This document shows, piece by piece, positions 46,984 through 52,812 of a DNA stretch of 64,000 nt (positions are counted from its first letter, which is position 1; each line of letters starts with the position of its first letter). The stretch is from Arenibacter catalasegens (GTDB taxonomy: Bacteria > Bacteroidota > Bacteroidia > Flavobacteriales > Flavobacteriaceae), in NCBI RefSeq assembly GCF_002909235.1, contig NZ_PHQQ01000009.1, positions 62,001 through 126,000 on the forward strand, written 5' to 3'. A program made the translations under genes and the position numbers. The notes beneath the pieces are model-generated. The model was not told the origin of the DNA, did no database searches, and worked only from the letters and a program-made list of their open reading frames with translations.

Positions 46984-49767
46984 TTAGTGCGGTAATTTTT
47001 CTTTTAAATACTTGGCTGTAAAGGAAGTTTTGTTTTTTGCAACTACTTCAGGCGTACCCTGTACCAAAAGTTGGCCTCCTTTATTTCCACCTTCCAGACC
47101 TAGGTCTATAATGTAATCGGCACACTTGATCAAGTCTATATTATGTTCTACTACAATTATAGAATGCCCTTTGGCAATTAGCGCGTCGAATGATTTGAGT
47201 AATTTCTTTATATCGTGAAAATGCAGACCTGTAGTAGGTTCGTCAAAAATAAATAGGGCTTTGTCCTTTGTATTTCCTTTTACTAAAAATGAAGCTAATT
47301 TTATACGCTGGGCTTCTCCTCCAGAAAGGGTAGAGGAGGATTGTCCCAAAGTTACATACCCTAGGCCTACATCCTGGAGTGGCTTTAGTTTTGTTACTAT
47401 TTTAGATTGATTGTTTTTTTCAAAGAAGGCGACTGCATCATCAATGGTCATGTTGAGGACGTTGTCTATATTGGCATCTTCAAATTTTACCTCCAAGACT
47501 TCTTTTTTAAATCTTTTGCCTTGGCAGGTTTCACATTCCAAATGTACATCGGCCATAAACTGCATTTCTACAGTAATCTCACCCTCCCCCTTACATTTTT
47601 CACACCTTCCCCCATCTACATTAAAGGAAAAGTGTTTAGCCTGGTACCCTCTTAATTTGCTTAATTTTTGACCGGCAAAAAGATTGCGGATATCGTCATA
47701 GGCCTTTATATAGGTTACGGGGTTTGATCTGGAGGATCGTCCTATGGGGTTCTGATCCACGTATTCTACATGCTTAAGGGATTCAAACTTCCCTTCCATG
47801 GAACTAAACTGTCCTGCTTTTTCGCCATAGCCACCCAGTTCCTTTAGAATTATAGGATAAAGTAGTTTTTTTACGAGTGTACTTTTACCACTGCCCGATA
47901 CCCCGGTGATTACGGTTAATATATTTAAGGGAAAGGTGACATCTATATTTTTTAGGTTGTTTTCACGTGCTCCCTTAATTTCAATGTAATTTTTAAAAGG
48001 CCTTCTGGTTTTGGGAACGGCAATTTCCATACTGCCATTTAGGTATGCCGCTGTAAGGGAATTGGATTTAAGTATTTCATCCATGGTGCCATGGGCAACC
48101 ACCTCACCACCATGTGTGCCAGCTTCTGGACCAATATCTATAACCTCGTCCGCAGCCTTCATTATATCCTCATCATGTTCTACTACAATTACTGTATTCC
48201 CTAAATCACGCAGCGATTTCAAAACTGTAATTAGGTTTTCGGTATCTTTTGGGTGTAGTCCTATACTAGGTTCGTCCAGAATATACATGGAACCTACCAA
48301 ACTACTCCCTAATGAGGTAGCCAGATTAATCCGTTGACTTTCCCCACCAGATAAAGAATTGGATTTTCTATTTAATGTTAAATAACTAAGTCCTACATTA
48401 AATAGAAATCCCAATCTACTTTCTATTTCCTTAAGTAGGCGGTCAACAATTTTCTGCTCATTGGAAGTTAGTTTAATTTCTTTGAAAAAGGTGATAAGGT
48501 CTTCTATGGGCAATTCTACAAGATCGGAAATAGATTTTCCAGAGACTTTAATATAGTCGGTCTCTTTTCGTAAACGTTTTCCTTTGCAGGTACTACATTT
48601 AGTTTTACCGCGATAACGGGAAAGCATGACCCTGTTCTGTATTTTGTAACTCTTTTCTTCCAGGCCCTCAAAGAATTTATGGATACCGTTAAAATAGCTG
48701 TTCCCTTCCCAAACCAGTTGTTTATGTTCTTCGGATAGTTGAAACCATGGTTTATGGATAGGAAAATCGAATTTGTACGCCACATTTACCAATTCATCCC
48801 TGTATCTGCCCATACTTTCTCCCCGCCATGGAAAAATGGCATTTTCATAAACCGAAAGCGAAGTATTGGGTATCACCAAGTCTTCATCTATTCCAATAAC
48901 GTCCCCATAGCCCTCACATTTAGGGCAGGCACCATATGGATTGTTAAAACTGAATAAATGTACATTAGGTTCTAGGAATTGAATTCCGTCCATCTCGAAC
49001 TTATTGCTAAAATGGGTGTTTATTCCTGTTGCAAGTTCCTGCACTATGCATTCGCCTTTCCCTTCAAAAAAAGCAGTATCAATAGCATTGCCCAATCTAT
49101 TAAAGAAATCGTCATCATTTTTAAAGACAATTCGATCTACCACCAGCTGGAATTCCCTACCTACTTCTTTTAAATCCTCATCTATCCTTGTTACCACCCC
49201 ATTGTGCAGTATTCTAGCAAACCCTTGCTTAGAAAGCAATTGGAGCGATTTATCAGGATCTCTATCTTCACTAATGCTAATAGGGGCAAGTAAAAGCATT
49301 TTTGTACCTTCCTCAAAAGTCTTTATATGTTCCACGACGTCCGATACGGTATGTTTTTTTACCTCTTTACCGGATAATGGGGAAACAGTTCGGCCAATGC
49401 GAGCAAACATTAATTTTAAATAGTCATATATCTCTGTTGAAGTGCCAACGGTGGATCTGGGGTTGGTAGAATTTACTTTTTGTTCAATAGCAATGGCCGG
49501 AGCTATACCTTTAATATAATCTACCTTGGGTTTATCCAATTTTCCTAAAAACTGTCTTGCGTATGAGGATAAGCTTTCTACATATCTTCTTTGCCCTTCA
49601 GCGTAAAGGGTATCGAAAGCTAAACTGGATTTTCCGGAACCGGACAATCCAGTAATGACTACTAGCTTATTGCGTGGTATTACAACATCTATATTCTTTA
49701 GATTATGGAGCTTTGCTCCCTTAATTATTATATTATGCTTTGGATTAACATCTGTAATAGTGGTCAT
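46984..49767 (-). CDS. uvrA: Excinuclease ABC subunit A
   Basis: 927 residues. Two ABC modules: Walker A at 40-48 (GLSGSGKSS) and again GVSGSGKST, signatures [13 protein letters not shown] and [13 protein letters not shown], and Walker B motifs ILDEPSIGL and [11 protein letters not shown]. Zinc-binding pairs CPKCEG and CSTCKGKR lie in the first half, and [10 protein letters not shown] ... CETCQGKRF in the second. It recognises DNA damage for nucleotide excision repair with UvrB. The only exact -7 box upstream on the minus strand is at 49785-49792. It is monocistronic; the ECF sigma genes upstream are on the other strand. Confidence 0.97.
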
Positions 49768-49784
49768 GCTCGTATTTAAGTTGG

Positions 49785-49792
49785 CAAAGATA
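49785..49792 (-). promoter_or_regulatory. -7 element for uvrA
   Basis: Minus-strand TATCTTTG, 17 bases before the uvrA ATG. No clear TTTG is present at the usual upstream distance. Confidence 0.45.
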
Positions 49793-49861
49793 CGATATGT
49801 GATTTTTATTAGCTAGTAGGCTTTGTCTTACAGTTAAATATTATTCATTGAAGGAAAGTTC

Positions 49862-49891
49862 TTTGAATCGATTTAATTTTTTCTATATTTG
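49862..49891 (+). promoter_or_regulatory. Bacteroidota promoter for the first sigma cassette
   Basis: TTTG (49862-49865), 18 bases, TATATTTG (49884-49891). The leader to the ATG at 50011 is about 115 bases. It fits the primary Bacteroidota sigma consensus, so the sigma gene itself need not be autoregulated. Confidence 0.65.
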
Positions 49892-50010
49892 ATGCAGAAT
49901 AAACCCTAAATAGCCTATACGTAACAAATTACTTTTTAAAATCTTATTTGCTCTAGTGCACTTGTAACAGAAAACAGGTATAGCATTTTAGCCTTAAAAA
50001 AGTAATTTGT

Positions 50011-50592
50011 ATGGAACTATTAATTGAGGATTCAGTATTAGTAAGAGACTACATGAATGGGGACGAAAGAGCCCTTGAAACACTAATCAACCGTCACAAC
50101 CAACGTCTAAGCAGTTTTATTTATTCCAAAGTCCAGGACAGGGAGACCACCGAAGATATTTTTCAAGACACCTTTATTAAGGTTATTAAGACCTTAAAGA
50201 AGGGCAATTATAATGAGGAAGGAAAATTTTTACCTTGGGTAATGCGGATTTCACATAATTTAATAATCGACTATTTTAGGAAGAATAAACGAATGCCCAG
50301 ATTTGAAGGCAATAGTGATTTTAATATTTTCTCCATAATTAGCGACGATAAGTTAAATGCAGAAAAACAACTTATTAAAGATCAAATAGATTTTGATCTT
50401 AAGATTCTGATCAAAGAATTGCCTAAAGATCAAATGGATGTTCTGGAAATGCGTTTATATAGGGACATGAGCTTTAAGGAAATATCAGAAAATACGGGAG
50501 TGAGTATTAATACTGCCTTGGGCAGAATGCGATATGCACTTATTAACCTTCGTAAGATAGTAGAAAGGCATAATATAATTTTAACGAATTAA
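50011..50592 (+). CDS. ECF RNA polymerase sigma factor, copy 1
   Basis: 193 residues. Region 2 (EDIFQDTFIKVIKTL, LPWVMRISHNLIIDYFR) and region 4 with a helix-turn-helix (MSFKEISENTGVSINTALGRMRYALINLRK). I count about 35 differences from copy 2 (82% identity) with no length change. No anti-sigma gene is beside it; instead a 47-codon ORF follows at 71 bases. The start context TAATTTGT-ATGGAACT is shared with copy 2. It lies between uvrA and nth. Confidence 0.93.
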   Translation: MELLIEDSVLVRDYMNGDERALETLINRHNQRLSSFIYSKVQDRETTEDIFQDTFIKVIKTLKKGNYNEEGKFLPWVMRISHNLIIDYFRKNKRMPRFEGNSDFNIFSIISDDKLNAEKQLIKDQIDFDLKILIKELPKDQMDVLEMRLYRDMSFKEISENTGVSINTALGRMRYALINLRKIVERHNIILTN

Positions 50593-50663
50593 TAGGCTTT
50601 ATAACTGCTTTTAGTTAATTTCTTCATAACACTTGCGTTATTTGATACTAGACGTATAAGATT

Positions 50664-50807
50664 ATGAAGAAAATTACCGTTACTAATAAGAACAAAAGCA
50701 AACTAATGTCCACACGCAGGTCGAAGATAGATTTTTTACTGAACTACTCTAAATCACTGCACATCATTAAATGTAATGATGAAAAGCAGGAACATTGTTT
50801 GAACTAG
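50664..50807 (+). CDS. 47-residue ORF downstream of sigma copy 1
   Basis: ATG 50664, stop TAG ending at 50807. The protein is small and basic, with the sequence KIDFLLNYSKSLHIIKCN in the middle and HCLN at the end. It aligns without gaps over its whole length to the 47-residue ORF after sigma copy 2: 21 of 47 residues are identical, including FLL-YS-SL-II, E43 and a final LN. The distance to the sigma stop is conserved (71 against 72 bases). It is likely a real, rapidly evolving small protein co-expressed with the sigma factor; its role is unknown. Confidence 0.65.
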   Translation: MKKITVTNKNKSKLMSTRRSKIDFLLNYSKSLHIIKCNDEKQEHCLN

Positions 50808-51332
50808 ACTTTTCCAATAATTTTCCCAATAGCCTTATTTAACCAATATTTGTTGGTTCCCATATGTATAAAGGAATAAGTAGGTAAAGTTGTTGGAATG
50901 GCATCCAAAGACTCTATTTATACTTTATCCCTGGAGACCTATTCTTTACTGTTATCTCTATATGGCCTATTTTCCATAGATTGGGAATATACCTCTGTAT
51001 AAACATAGGGATTTCTATACTCCTTATTATATAGGTATTTTAACCTTTATATAATCCAACAATAATTATTACTCTTCTAAGTAATCCCATTAAGCACATC
51101 CAACTTCAATTTTGGCCAATTATTATGTGTAAAATAAGAAAATCGGCATTTGACATCATTTAATGGGGGTTTTACAACATAGTTTTTTTCTCACATGTGC
51201 ATTTATATACTTTTATCCTGTTGCTAATCAACAATGAAGATTTTAAGTCTTCATTTAAAGAAGAAGTAATAAAAAATAAAGTCCGAACCGAAAGGGGAGG
51301 CCCCCTAGTTTAACCATAAAACAATAATTTGT
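50808..51332. other. Region between the two sigma cassettes
   Basis: 525 AT-rich bases with no convincing ORF. They include a weak hairpin (AATGAAGA / TCTTCATT, 51233-51255) and a short GGGG-AGG-CCCC hairpin (51294-51304) 29 bases before the second sigma start. The promoter of copy 2 must be here, but no exact TAnnTTTG box with proper spacing was found. Confidence 0.5.
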
Positions 51333-51914
51333 ATGGAACTGCAAATAGATGACTCAGTATTAGTAAAGGATTACATTAATGGTAATGAAAAAGCTTTAGA
51401 GGTTTTGATCAACAGGCACAACCAACGTATTAGTAGCTTTATTTACTCTAAGGTTTTGGACCGTGATGTTTCAGAGGACATTTTTCAGGACACCTTTATT
51501 AAAGTAATCAAAACCTTAAAAAAGGGAAATTATAGCGAAGAGGGTAAATTTTTACCTTGGGTTATGAGAATTGCCCATAATTTGGTGATCGATCACTTTA
51601 GAAGGAACAAAAGAATGCCAATGTTCGAGGGAAATGATGATTTTAATATTTTTTCTGTAATTGGTGATGATAAACTAAATGTAGAAAAGCAGTTGATCAA
51701 AGATCAGATCGATACTGATTTGAATTTGTTGATCGAAGAATTACCTGATGATCAAAAAGAGGTTCTTTTAATGCGTATTTACAGGGATATGAGTTTCAAG
51801 GAAATTTCTGAAAATACCGGTGTTAGTATTAATACCGCTTTAGGGAGAATGAGATATGCGCTAATTAACCTAAGAAAAATCATTGAAAAGAATAATATCG
51901 TTTTAACGAATTAA
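51333..51914 (+). CDS. ECF RNA polymerase sigma factor, copy 2
   Basis: 193 residues, same length as copy 1 with about 82% identity. Conserved blocks are identical in the -35-recognition helix (SINTALGRMRYALINLRK) and the core of region 2 (EDIFQDTFIKVIKTLKKGNY), so both copies probably recognise the same promoters. A homologous 47-codon ORF follows at 72 bases. There is no anti-sigma gene of the RskA type beside either copy, unlike the sigma/anti-sigma pair at 1340-2663. Confidence 0.93.
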   Translation: MELQIDDSVLVKDYINGNEKALEVLINRHNQRISSFIYSKVLDRDVSEDIFQDTFIKVIKTLKKGNYSEEGKFLPWVMRIAHNLVIDHFRRNKRMPMFEGNDDFNIFSVIGDDKLNVEKQLIKDQIDTDLNLLIEELPDDQKEVLLMRIYRDMSFKEISENTGVSINTALGRMRYALINLRKIIEKNNIVLTN

Positions 51915-51986
51915 TAGGTCATAGGTCGAGGAGTACAATATTTCCAATTTAGTGGCGTTATCTTATCATAACAATACTATAATCCT

Positions 51987-52130
51987 ATGGAAAAAATTTA
52001 CTCTGAACATCGAAACAAGTGTAAACTTGCGAAAGCGAGTCCTGAAACTATCAAGTTCCTATTGGGCTATTCCAACTCTTTACAAATAATTGAATATAAT
52101 AATGTTCAGTTTGAAAATAATTTAAACTAG
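51987..52130 (+). CDS. 47-residue ORF downstream of sigma copy 2
   Basis: ATG 51987, stop TAG ending 52130. Small protein with ETIKFLLGYSNSLQIIEYNN in the middle and NNLN at the end. Its ungapped match to the ORF after copy 1 (same length, 21 identical residues) and the conserved spacing to the sigma stop are the main evidence that it is a gene. The terminator at 52134 begins 4 bases after the stop. It could be an anti-sigma, adaptor or antitoxin-like partner of the sigma factor; I do not recognise it. Confidence 0.68.
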   Translation: MEKIYSEHRNKCKLAKASPETIKFLLGYSNSLQIIEYNNVQFENNLN

Positions 52131-52133
52131 AAC

Positions 52134-52165
52134 AAAAAATCCCAACCTACGAGTTGGGATTTTTT
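52134..52165. terminator. Terminator shared by the sigma cassette and nth
   Basis: 13-base arms (AAAAAATCCCAAC / GTTGGGATTTTTT) around a 6-base loop. The nth stop codon (52147-52149) lies in the loop, so the last codons of nth form one arm. Confidence 0.9.
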
Positions 52166-52812
52166 GCTTTATAATAGGCATGTAACACTGGTTTCCTGCC
52201 AATTGTTTTAGTAATAATGTCTTTTTCTAAATTCCATCCCCTTGCAGGGGAGTATTCCCGTCCGTACCATATAATCTGTAAATGAAGATCATTCCATATT
52301 TCTTTGGGGAATAATCTTTTGGCATCCTTTTCTGTTTGAACCACATTTTTTCCATTGGAAAATCCCCAGCGGTACATTAGCCTATGTATATGGGTATCTA
52401 CAGGAAATGCAGGAATGCCAAATGCTTGGGAAACTACCACGCTCGCCGTTTTGTGTCCAACCGCCGGGAATTGCTCCAATAACTCAATCTCTTGCGGTAC
52501 TTGTCCGTTATATTTCTCAATAAGGATTTTCGAAAGCCCGTAAATACCTTTAGACTTCATAGGGGATAAGCCGACAGGTTTAATAATTTCCCTAATCTCC
52601 TCCGCGGTCATTTTAACCATGTCATAGGGATTATCCGCCTTTTTAAATAATAAGGGTGTTATCTTATTTACACGTACATCCGTACTTTGAGCGGATAATA
52701 ATACAGCAATTAACAGCGTATATGGGTCTTTGTGGTCTAAAGGAACAGGGATGGTCGGGTAGATTTCTTGTAGAGTTTTAATAGTAAAGTTTACTTTTTC
52801 CGCTTTCGTCAT
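52147..52812 (-). CDS. nth: Endonuclease III homologue without iron-sulfur cluster
   Basis: 221 residues. The helix-hairpin-helix is FPAVGHKTASVVV, with catalytic K121 and D139 (PVDTHIHRL) matching K120 and D138 of E. coli Nth. It would remove oxidised pyrimidines and nick the AP site. The usual C-terminal cluster (C-X6-C-X2-C-X5-C) is absent: the end reads YGREYSPARGWNLEKDII and the whole protein has no cysteine. Such cluster-free forms occur in some Bacteroidota, to my knowledge. The bcp gene is divergent 87 bases away. The stop lies inside the terminator hairpin. Confidence 0.92.
   Translation of the reverse strand: MTKAEKVNFTIKTLQEIYPTIPVPLDHKDPYTLLIAVLLSAQSTDVRVNKITPLLFKKADNPYDMVKMTAEEIREIIKPVGLSPMKSKGIYGLSKILIEKYNGQVPQEIELLEQFPAVGHKTASVVVSQAFGIPAFPVDTHIHRLMYRWGFSNGKNVVQTEKDAKRLFPKEIWNDLHLQIIWYGREYSPARGWNLEKDIITKTIGRKPVLHAYYKAKNPNS

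Follow-up and report, generated by a model that had tools for sequence, protein, structure and literature searches.

The ECF sigma factors described here, from Arenibacter catalasegens, each form a real and conserved unit with a micro-protein encoded 3' of the sigma gene. By sequence comparison, we best interpret this partner as a class I anti-sigma factor in reduced form, which would be new, and it is from this resemblance that we infer its function. Two such units lie between uvrA and nth in the window, by which we mean the whole stretch of DNA that was analysed, 64,000 nucleotides of contig NZ_PHQQ01000009.1. The locus is laid out as follows, with the evidence in parentheses.

46984-49767, minus strand: uvrA, one flank of the sigma pair
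50011-50592, plus strand: sigma1, ECF sigma factor of 193 amino acids (ORF, Pfam, genus conservation)
50664-50807, plus strand: micro1, putative reduced anti-sigma-like partner of 47 amino acids (partner HMM, dN/dS, genus survey)
51333-51914, plus strand: sigma2, ECF sigma factor of 193 amino acids (ORF, Pfam, genus conservation)
51987-52130, plus strand: micro2, putative reduced anti-sigma-like partner of 47 amino acids (partner HMM, dN/dS, family and genus surveys)
52133-52166, plus strand: terminator-like hairpin directly 3' of micro2 (14-pair stem, then a T-rich tail)
52147-52812, minus strand: nth, the other flank of the sigma pair

Unit 1 (sigma1-micro1) covers 50011-50807 and is 797 bases long, unit 2 (sigma2-micro2) covers 51333-52130 and is 798 bases long, and with 525 bases between them the two form a direct, spaced tandem. 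Within the units, sigma and micro-ORF are separated by 71 and 72 bases, respectively. These coordinates bear out the original prediction of two direct units, each with a 47-codon ORF, and the prediction was also right that the sigma genes are of equal length, about 82% identical (82% in protein, 75% in DNA) and alike in their start context, TAATTTGT-ATGGAACT. The micro-ORFs are 46% identical in protein and 56% in DNA. Both sigma proteins score above the Pfam cut-offs for Sigma70_r2 and Sigma70_r4, which qualifies them as ECF sigma factors, and neither micro-protein matched an NCBIfam model at E<=1 or any Pfam model except one irrelevant one (E of 0.13). The prediction had contrasted the tandem, as having no conventional anti-sigma gene, with a sigma/RskA-like pair at 1340-2663 on the minus strand; that description holds only in the sense that the micro-ORF appears to be a remnant of such a gene. 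The terminator-like hairpin after micro2 is consistent with sigma2 and micro2 sharing one transcript. We note that 5' of sigma2, at 51139-51190, the block GGCATTTGACATC...GTTTTACAACATAG is kept across most of the genus and is perhaps sigma2's own promoter region.

Both sigma copies are present in all 18 genomes examined from the window's genus, and thus the tandem is not due to chance; micro2 accompanies them in 18/18 and micro1 in 16/18. The copy-1 micro-ORF was not found in genomes G008 and G012, where the 600 bases 3' of sigma1 gave only short tblastn matches, the best of 11 residues (E of 0.016). A GC-rich stretch is common to loci L044 and L048, 3' of sigma copy 1, at the place where the micro-ORF was not found.

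Pairing extends well beyond the genus. In a survey of the family that took one genome from each of 80 genera (thresholds of E<=0.001 for the micro-ORF and E<=1e-40 for sigma), a micro-ORF match occurred in 73 genomes and a sigma match in 76. A micro-ORF begins 43-157 bases past the end of the sigma match in 81 of the 85 sigma units, which places the partner beside an ECF sigma factor, as expected of a class I anti-sigma factor; no micro-ORF could be found at the other four units (G021, G033, G172 and G189). A broader genome scan, with 583 confirmed candidates, gave the same picture: among its 80 best named records, each of the 88 sigma units has a partner. Flavobacterium records L230, L234 and L235 are among those with the pair. 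Conversely, 3 of 84 family micro-ORF matches lacked a sigma, two of them weak matches in G204 and one in the window's own genome. The latter is a third, intact micro-ORF with no adjoining sigma, on contig 44 (L089; 257-469, minus strand, match at 260-400), and the remaining 17 genus genomes gave no strong-scoring orphan.

The sigma factor itself is a class-wide ECF sigma. One sigma match was found in 88 of 99 genomes of a class sample and two in the window's own, and in the class loci the orthologues often adjoin uvrA. Two copies occur in only 9 of the 80 genera of the family, Maribacter stanieri (L167) being another tandem example, and pairing is therefore not tied to duplication, as single-copy relatives have it too. 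The proposal that sigma and its small partner are retained as a unit is strongly supported. In the rooted sigma tree, which did not resolve its deep branches, the single-copy sigmas of Cellulophaga and Flagellimonas group with copy 2; either copy 1 was lost there or the duplication came later. Two IMG/VR contigs of 61-63 kb (L240 and L241) carry more distant relatives of the sigma, with 37% and 34% identity to the query.

The micro-ORFs are under purifying selection and are genes. Pooled pairwise dN/dS over the genus and three near genera was 0.24 for micro1 (29 pairs) and 0.15 for micro2 (83 pairs), when the same DNA read out of frame with stops masked gave 0.97-1.41 and the sigma genes in the same comparison gave 0.041 (sigma1) and 0.012 (sigma2). 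The samples comprised 19 and 20 rows, only pairs of equal length with pS <0.6 were used, and the search pattern failed to pick up one micro2 row. Conservation of the small frames 3' of orthologous sigma genes and an excess of synonymous changes within them, the two points on which the original prediction could have failed, are thus both observed.

What the micro-protein derives from is suggested by its longer relatives. A class-wide survey covered 143 sigma units at 122 loci, the window's genome included, and an HMM found a homologous partner within 600 bases 3' of 110 of the sigma orthologues; five further partners were identified by eye, their start overlapping sigma or their sequence being divergent, and 28 units had none by either approach. 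The partners form a series of lengths, from 45-50 amino acids in the window's family (44-50 for short forms in general) through 55-70 and 72-90 to 173-174 amino acids. The longest occur in one family (f17) and carry a hydrophobic segment, probably a membrane segment. An alignment of 16 hand-chosen full-form rows (A1) has the pattern DLIRFLYxE...ExxxLxxxLxxDxxL...LD...PSxxTIxxILxYS, in which the pattern and register of helices 1-3 resemble NCBI anti-sigma models. The NCBI model NF052375 matched four of the 16 at E<=1 (0.13, 0.0013, 0.00044 and 5.4e-8), and a putative anti-sigmaE model matched three (best 0.0033), all of these NCBIfam matches lying far under the curated cut-offs. A partner of 188 amino acids on a contig from a viral collection also matched NF052375 (7.8e-6); its sigma is 46% identical to sigma2, and the contig looks partly chromosomal, with ParA and ParB genes following. 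Every NF052375 match begins near the N-terminus of both model and partner. None of the 16 full forms matched a Pfam anti-sigma model, and the A1 profile recovered no anti-sigma factor from the PDB chains. The long forms show no Cys/His zinc motif, and folding the L239 anti-sigma domain from its sequence alone gave a poor model (pLDDT of 54). The longest partners resemble, in sequence, a zinc-less class I anti-sigma domain.

The short forms appear to join this series through its helix-4 part. An HMM of 13 full forms, tested on the other partners of <100 amino acids with database size set to 1000, matched 79 of 100 at E<1, of which 76 on the helix-4 segment, and gave a mean of 0.35 matches to shuffled sequences over 20 rounds. 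Forms of <=52 amino acids matched it in 40 of 58 cases, nearly always on the helix-4 part. In the other direction, an HMM built from the family micro-ORFs alone matched 41 of 61 partners outside the family at E<0.01 and failed to match nine, mostly full forms. Comparison with hhalign gave E of 0.0015 (probability 17%) and 6.7e-5 (64%), the probabilities being modest. The helix 1-3 segment, whose pattern is present in the long relatives of A1, is absent from the 47-amino-acid peptides of the window. The micro-protein is, on this homology, most likely an anti-sigma factor reduced to helix 4 and a tail. The anti-sigma domain is widespread in bacteria, and for that reason, rather than from a tree, we take helices 1-3 to have been lost and not gained.

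The tail of the reduced forms ends in a nearly invariant residue. Asn ends 132 of 133 partners of <=52 amino acids, 45 of 46 of 53-70, 12 of 22 of 71-95 and one of three longer ones, and altogether 182 of 196 distinct partner sequences; the sigma proteins themselves end in Asn in 131 of 232 units. AlphaFold2, run with 148 alignment rows on one continuous chain that reads from sigma2 through the spacer into micro2, modelled the micro2 part as one helix (residues 19-31) and two strands (32-37 and 40-45) with block pLDDT of 64-85, and the tail is thus predicted to be a beta hairpin. The spacer and first 12 micro residues were disordered (pLDDT <50), and the pTM of 0.48 is uninformative on docking. 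Foldseek with the fused model returned ECF sigmas, many from the AlgU-MucA, RpoE-RseA and SigW-RsiW complexes, a result that informs the sigma half only. Mutual information between sigma and partner (203 pairs, Neff of 97) was not enriched for sigma region 2 or the micro helix: the top 50 pairs included 14 in region 2 and 10 in the helix, where 19 and 18 were expected, and docking thus gained no support from covariation.

Upstream of sigma1, at 49880-50013, lies a second conserved element, a leader with three parts.

49884-49891, plus strand: TATATTTG, a match to the Bacteroidota housekeeping -7 box TAnnTTTG, where leader alignment A6 starts (sequence)
49913-49919, plus strand: GCCTATA, conserved leader block (alignment A6, 93 leaders)
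49924-50010, plus strand: sigma1 leader hairpin reaching the start codon, with its arms at 49924-49937 and 49996-50010 (covariation, fold, covariance model)

The order of TATATTTG box (for the consensus, see PMC7366714 and PMC9723704), GCCTATA and stem ATTACTTT / AAAGTAAT is found 5' of sigma1 and of single-copy sigmas, and in most leaders the 3' arm stops 0-5 bases before the start codon. Across the 93 leaders, the TAT of GCCTATA (letters 4-6) is invariant, the first G is kept in 90 and the second C in 89. In the stem, 89.5% of cells pair, and 81 double changes occur against 37.2 in shuffles, none of 500 shuffles reaching 81; sliding the arms gave <=34. Stem pairs with any double change number 6 against 4.2 in shuffles (5/500). 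These counts were made on a stem named by hand and not on RNAalifold output, as RNAalifold by itself returned no consensus pair for A6. The sigma1 hairpin has a fold z of -2.43, and a covariance model of the leader found one place in the whole genome, the sigma1 leader (150 of 7254 first-look candidates scored). Within the window the model gave E of 9.6e-9 at that leader and nothing at sigma2. Folds beat all 20 shuffles in 3 of 29 copy-2 leaders versus 72 of 112 others. We conclude that sigma1 has a conserved, covarying leader to which copy 2 has no counterpart. Rfam gave no match in the window at gathering score and only 13 weak, chance-level matches in 49760-52200.

The leader reaches beyond the family in weaker form. 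At 85 loci outside it, the covariance model gave 24 matches at E<=0.1, 23 of them adjoining a sigma start, and 44 at E<=5, 38 of them so placed. The bare stem is weak there: just 10 of 81 leaders did better than every one of 20 shuffles. Bacteroidia ribosomes rarely use Shine-Dalgarno sequences (PMC9976891, PMC8710568). Outside the order, GGAGG or AGGAG stands within 22 bases of the start in 22 of 64 sigma leaders versus 6 of 113 controls (ORFs of >=200 amino acids from the same loci), and a strong Shine-Dalgarno sequence occurs in none of 17 sigma leaders within the order and none of 145 in the family. At L102, L115, L122 and L136 it coincides with the 3' arm of the stem. We note that at outside-order loci including these four and L140 the strong Shine-Dalgarno sequence can pair with an upstream arm. 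The Shine-Dalgarno-dependent control of rpsU in Bacteroidia is comparable in that some outside-order sigma leaders also carry a strong Shine-Dalgarno sequence, but rpsU control relies on pairing with 16S rRNA, whereas the start-adjacent sequence of the sigma leader can pair with its own upstream arm.

How the micro-protein might act can be framed by known complexes. In class I complexes, helices 1-3 of the ASDI hold sigma region 4. Helix 1 lies on that region, and helix 4 lies on the RNA-polymerase face of region 2 (PMC7406223). For the ancestral partner we propose a class I anti-sigma domain with four helices and no zinc, joined in some lineages by a probable membrane segment; in the window's family helices 1-3 would have gone, leaving a helix-4 equivalent and a tail with its nearly invariant C-terminal Asn. 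The peptide would clip onto sigma region 2 and hold sigma off RNA polymerase, and helix 4 alone could still suffice for that block. Release would follow once sigma outnumbers the peptide or the peptide is removed, perhaps through degradation from its C-terminus, and translation of sigma1 would additionally be gated by the hairpin against its start codon. That each unit is a sigma/anti-sigma pair in which a shrunken anti-sigma inhibits through helix 4 on region 2 seems to us fairly probable. A narrower version, combining a one-helix anti-sigma on region 2 alone, contrary to the rule of two contacts, release by degradation through a C-terminal Leu-Asn signal and a leader hairpin that hides the sigma start and came from a hidden Shine-Dalgarno sequence, is doubtful as a whole.

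Known systems resemble the units in part. The class I anti-sigma domains (RseA, RskA, ChrR and RsiW) share with the long relatives a helix 1-3 pattern and register, and it is to the fourth-helix part of these relatives that the window peptides appear to align. The peptides, however, lack helices 1-3 and are too short to hold a sensor domain or a membrane segment, and their -LN tail occurs in none of the rows of 72-81 amino acids in A1. In the class II pair CnrH-CnrY, the sigma-binding segment of CnrY is likewise very short, and its last helix binds sigma region 2 as ASDI helix 4 does (PMC7406223); CnrY, however, lays two helices over both sigma domains, whereas a model of moderate confidence gives the window peptide a single helix and a hairpin. 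EcfO-Reo and other Dma-type Bacteroides pairs also join an ECF sigma to a regulator in the same phylum, but Reo reportedly extends from the cytoplasm to the outer surface (PMC13114119), and partners of 47 amino acids have no room to span inner and outer membranes. That published description rules out EcfO-Reo as the identity of the system.

Inhibition has points against it. ECF anti-sigma factors have been argued to contact both sigma domains (PMC7406223), something that a one-helix peptide may fail to do. The missing Pfam matches, the modest hhalign probabilities and the mutual-information result also count against this reading, as do sigma1 without micro1 in two of 18 genomes and the units for which no partner was found in the family (4/85) and the class (28/143). 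Perhaps, having lost helices 1-3, the micro-protein changed its role and became a positive cofactor that stabilises sigma or aids its loading onto RNA polymerase. Long co-retention with sigma and purifying selection would be expected of a cofactor, and the part that holds sigma region 4 is the part that is gone, a one-helix inhibitor being unusual by the account in PMC7406223. The homology of the partner points instead to an inhibitor, however, and the two genomes that keep sigma1 alone indicate that this sigma needs no partner of its own. We consider a cofactor unlikely.

Two further explanations would deprive the peptide of any function. The micro-ORF might be a decaying anti-sigma relic, translated but functionless, as its reduced length and its absence beside sigma1 in two genus genomes and at four family units would allow; with dN/dS well under 1, retention in 81 of 85 units and a conserved motif and C-terminus, we think this very improbable. 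Alternatively, the micro-ORF might work mainly through RNA or translation, by coupling or as a decoy ORF, and such a role would fit a short frame that soon follows the stop codon of sigma and, at micro2, is itself followed by a terminator-like hairpin. Sigma-micro spacing, however, varies over 43-157 bases, and it is the amino acids that are under purifying selection. Moreover, among 199 partners the terminal Asn is kept with both of its codons (AAT in 104, AAC in 85), the penultimate Leu uses all six, and all three stop codons occur. Because codons vary while residues stay, selection acts on the peptide, and a role through RNA or translation is hardly credible. The preferred reading thus remains a sigma factor paired with a shrunken inhibitor.

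Among the open-licence papers listed by our searches, none describes the micro-partner or the sigma leader; for Flavobacterium psychrophilum, PMC9723704 reports a sigma/anti-sigma pair, which may or may not be the present one, and a promoter motif of ECF type. A class I anti-sigma factor was found nearby for only 6% of Bacteroidetes ECF sigmas in PMC7406223, from whose set domains under 50 amino acids were removed. Reduced partners would fall under such a cut-off, and part of the missing regulation may therefore hide in small ORFs. Ultimately, the series from 173-174 to 44-50 amino acids allows a test of how small an anti-sigma factor can be and still suffice.
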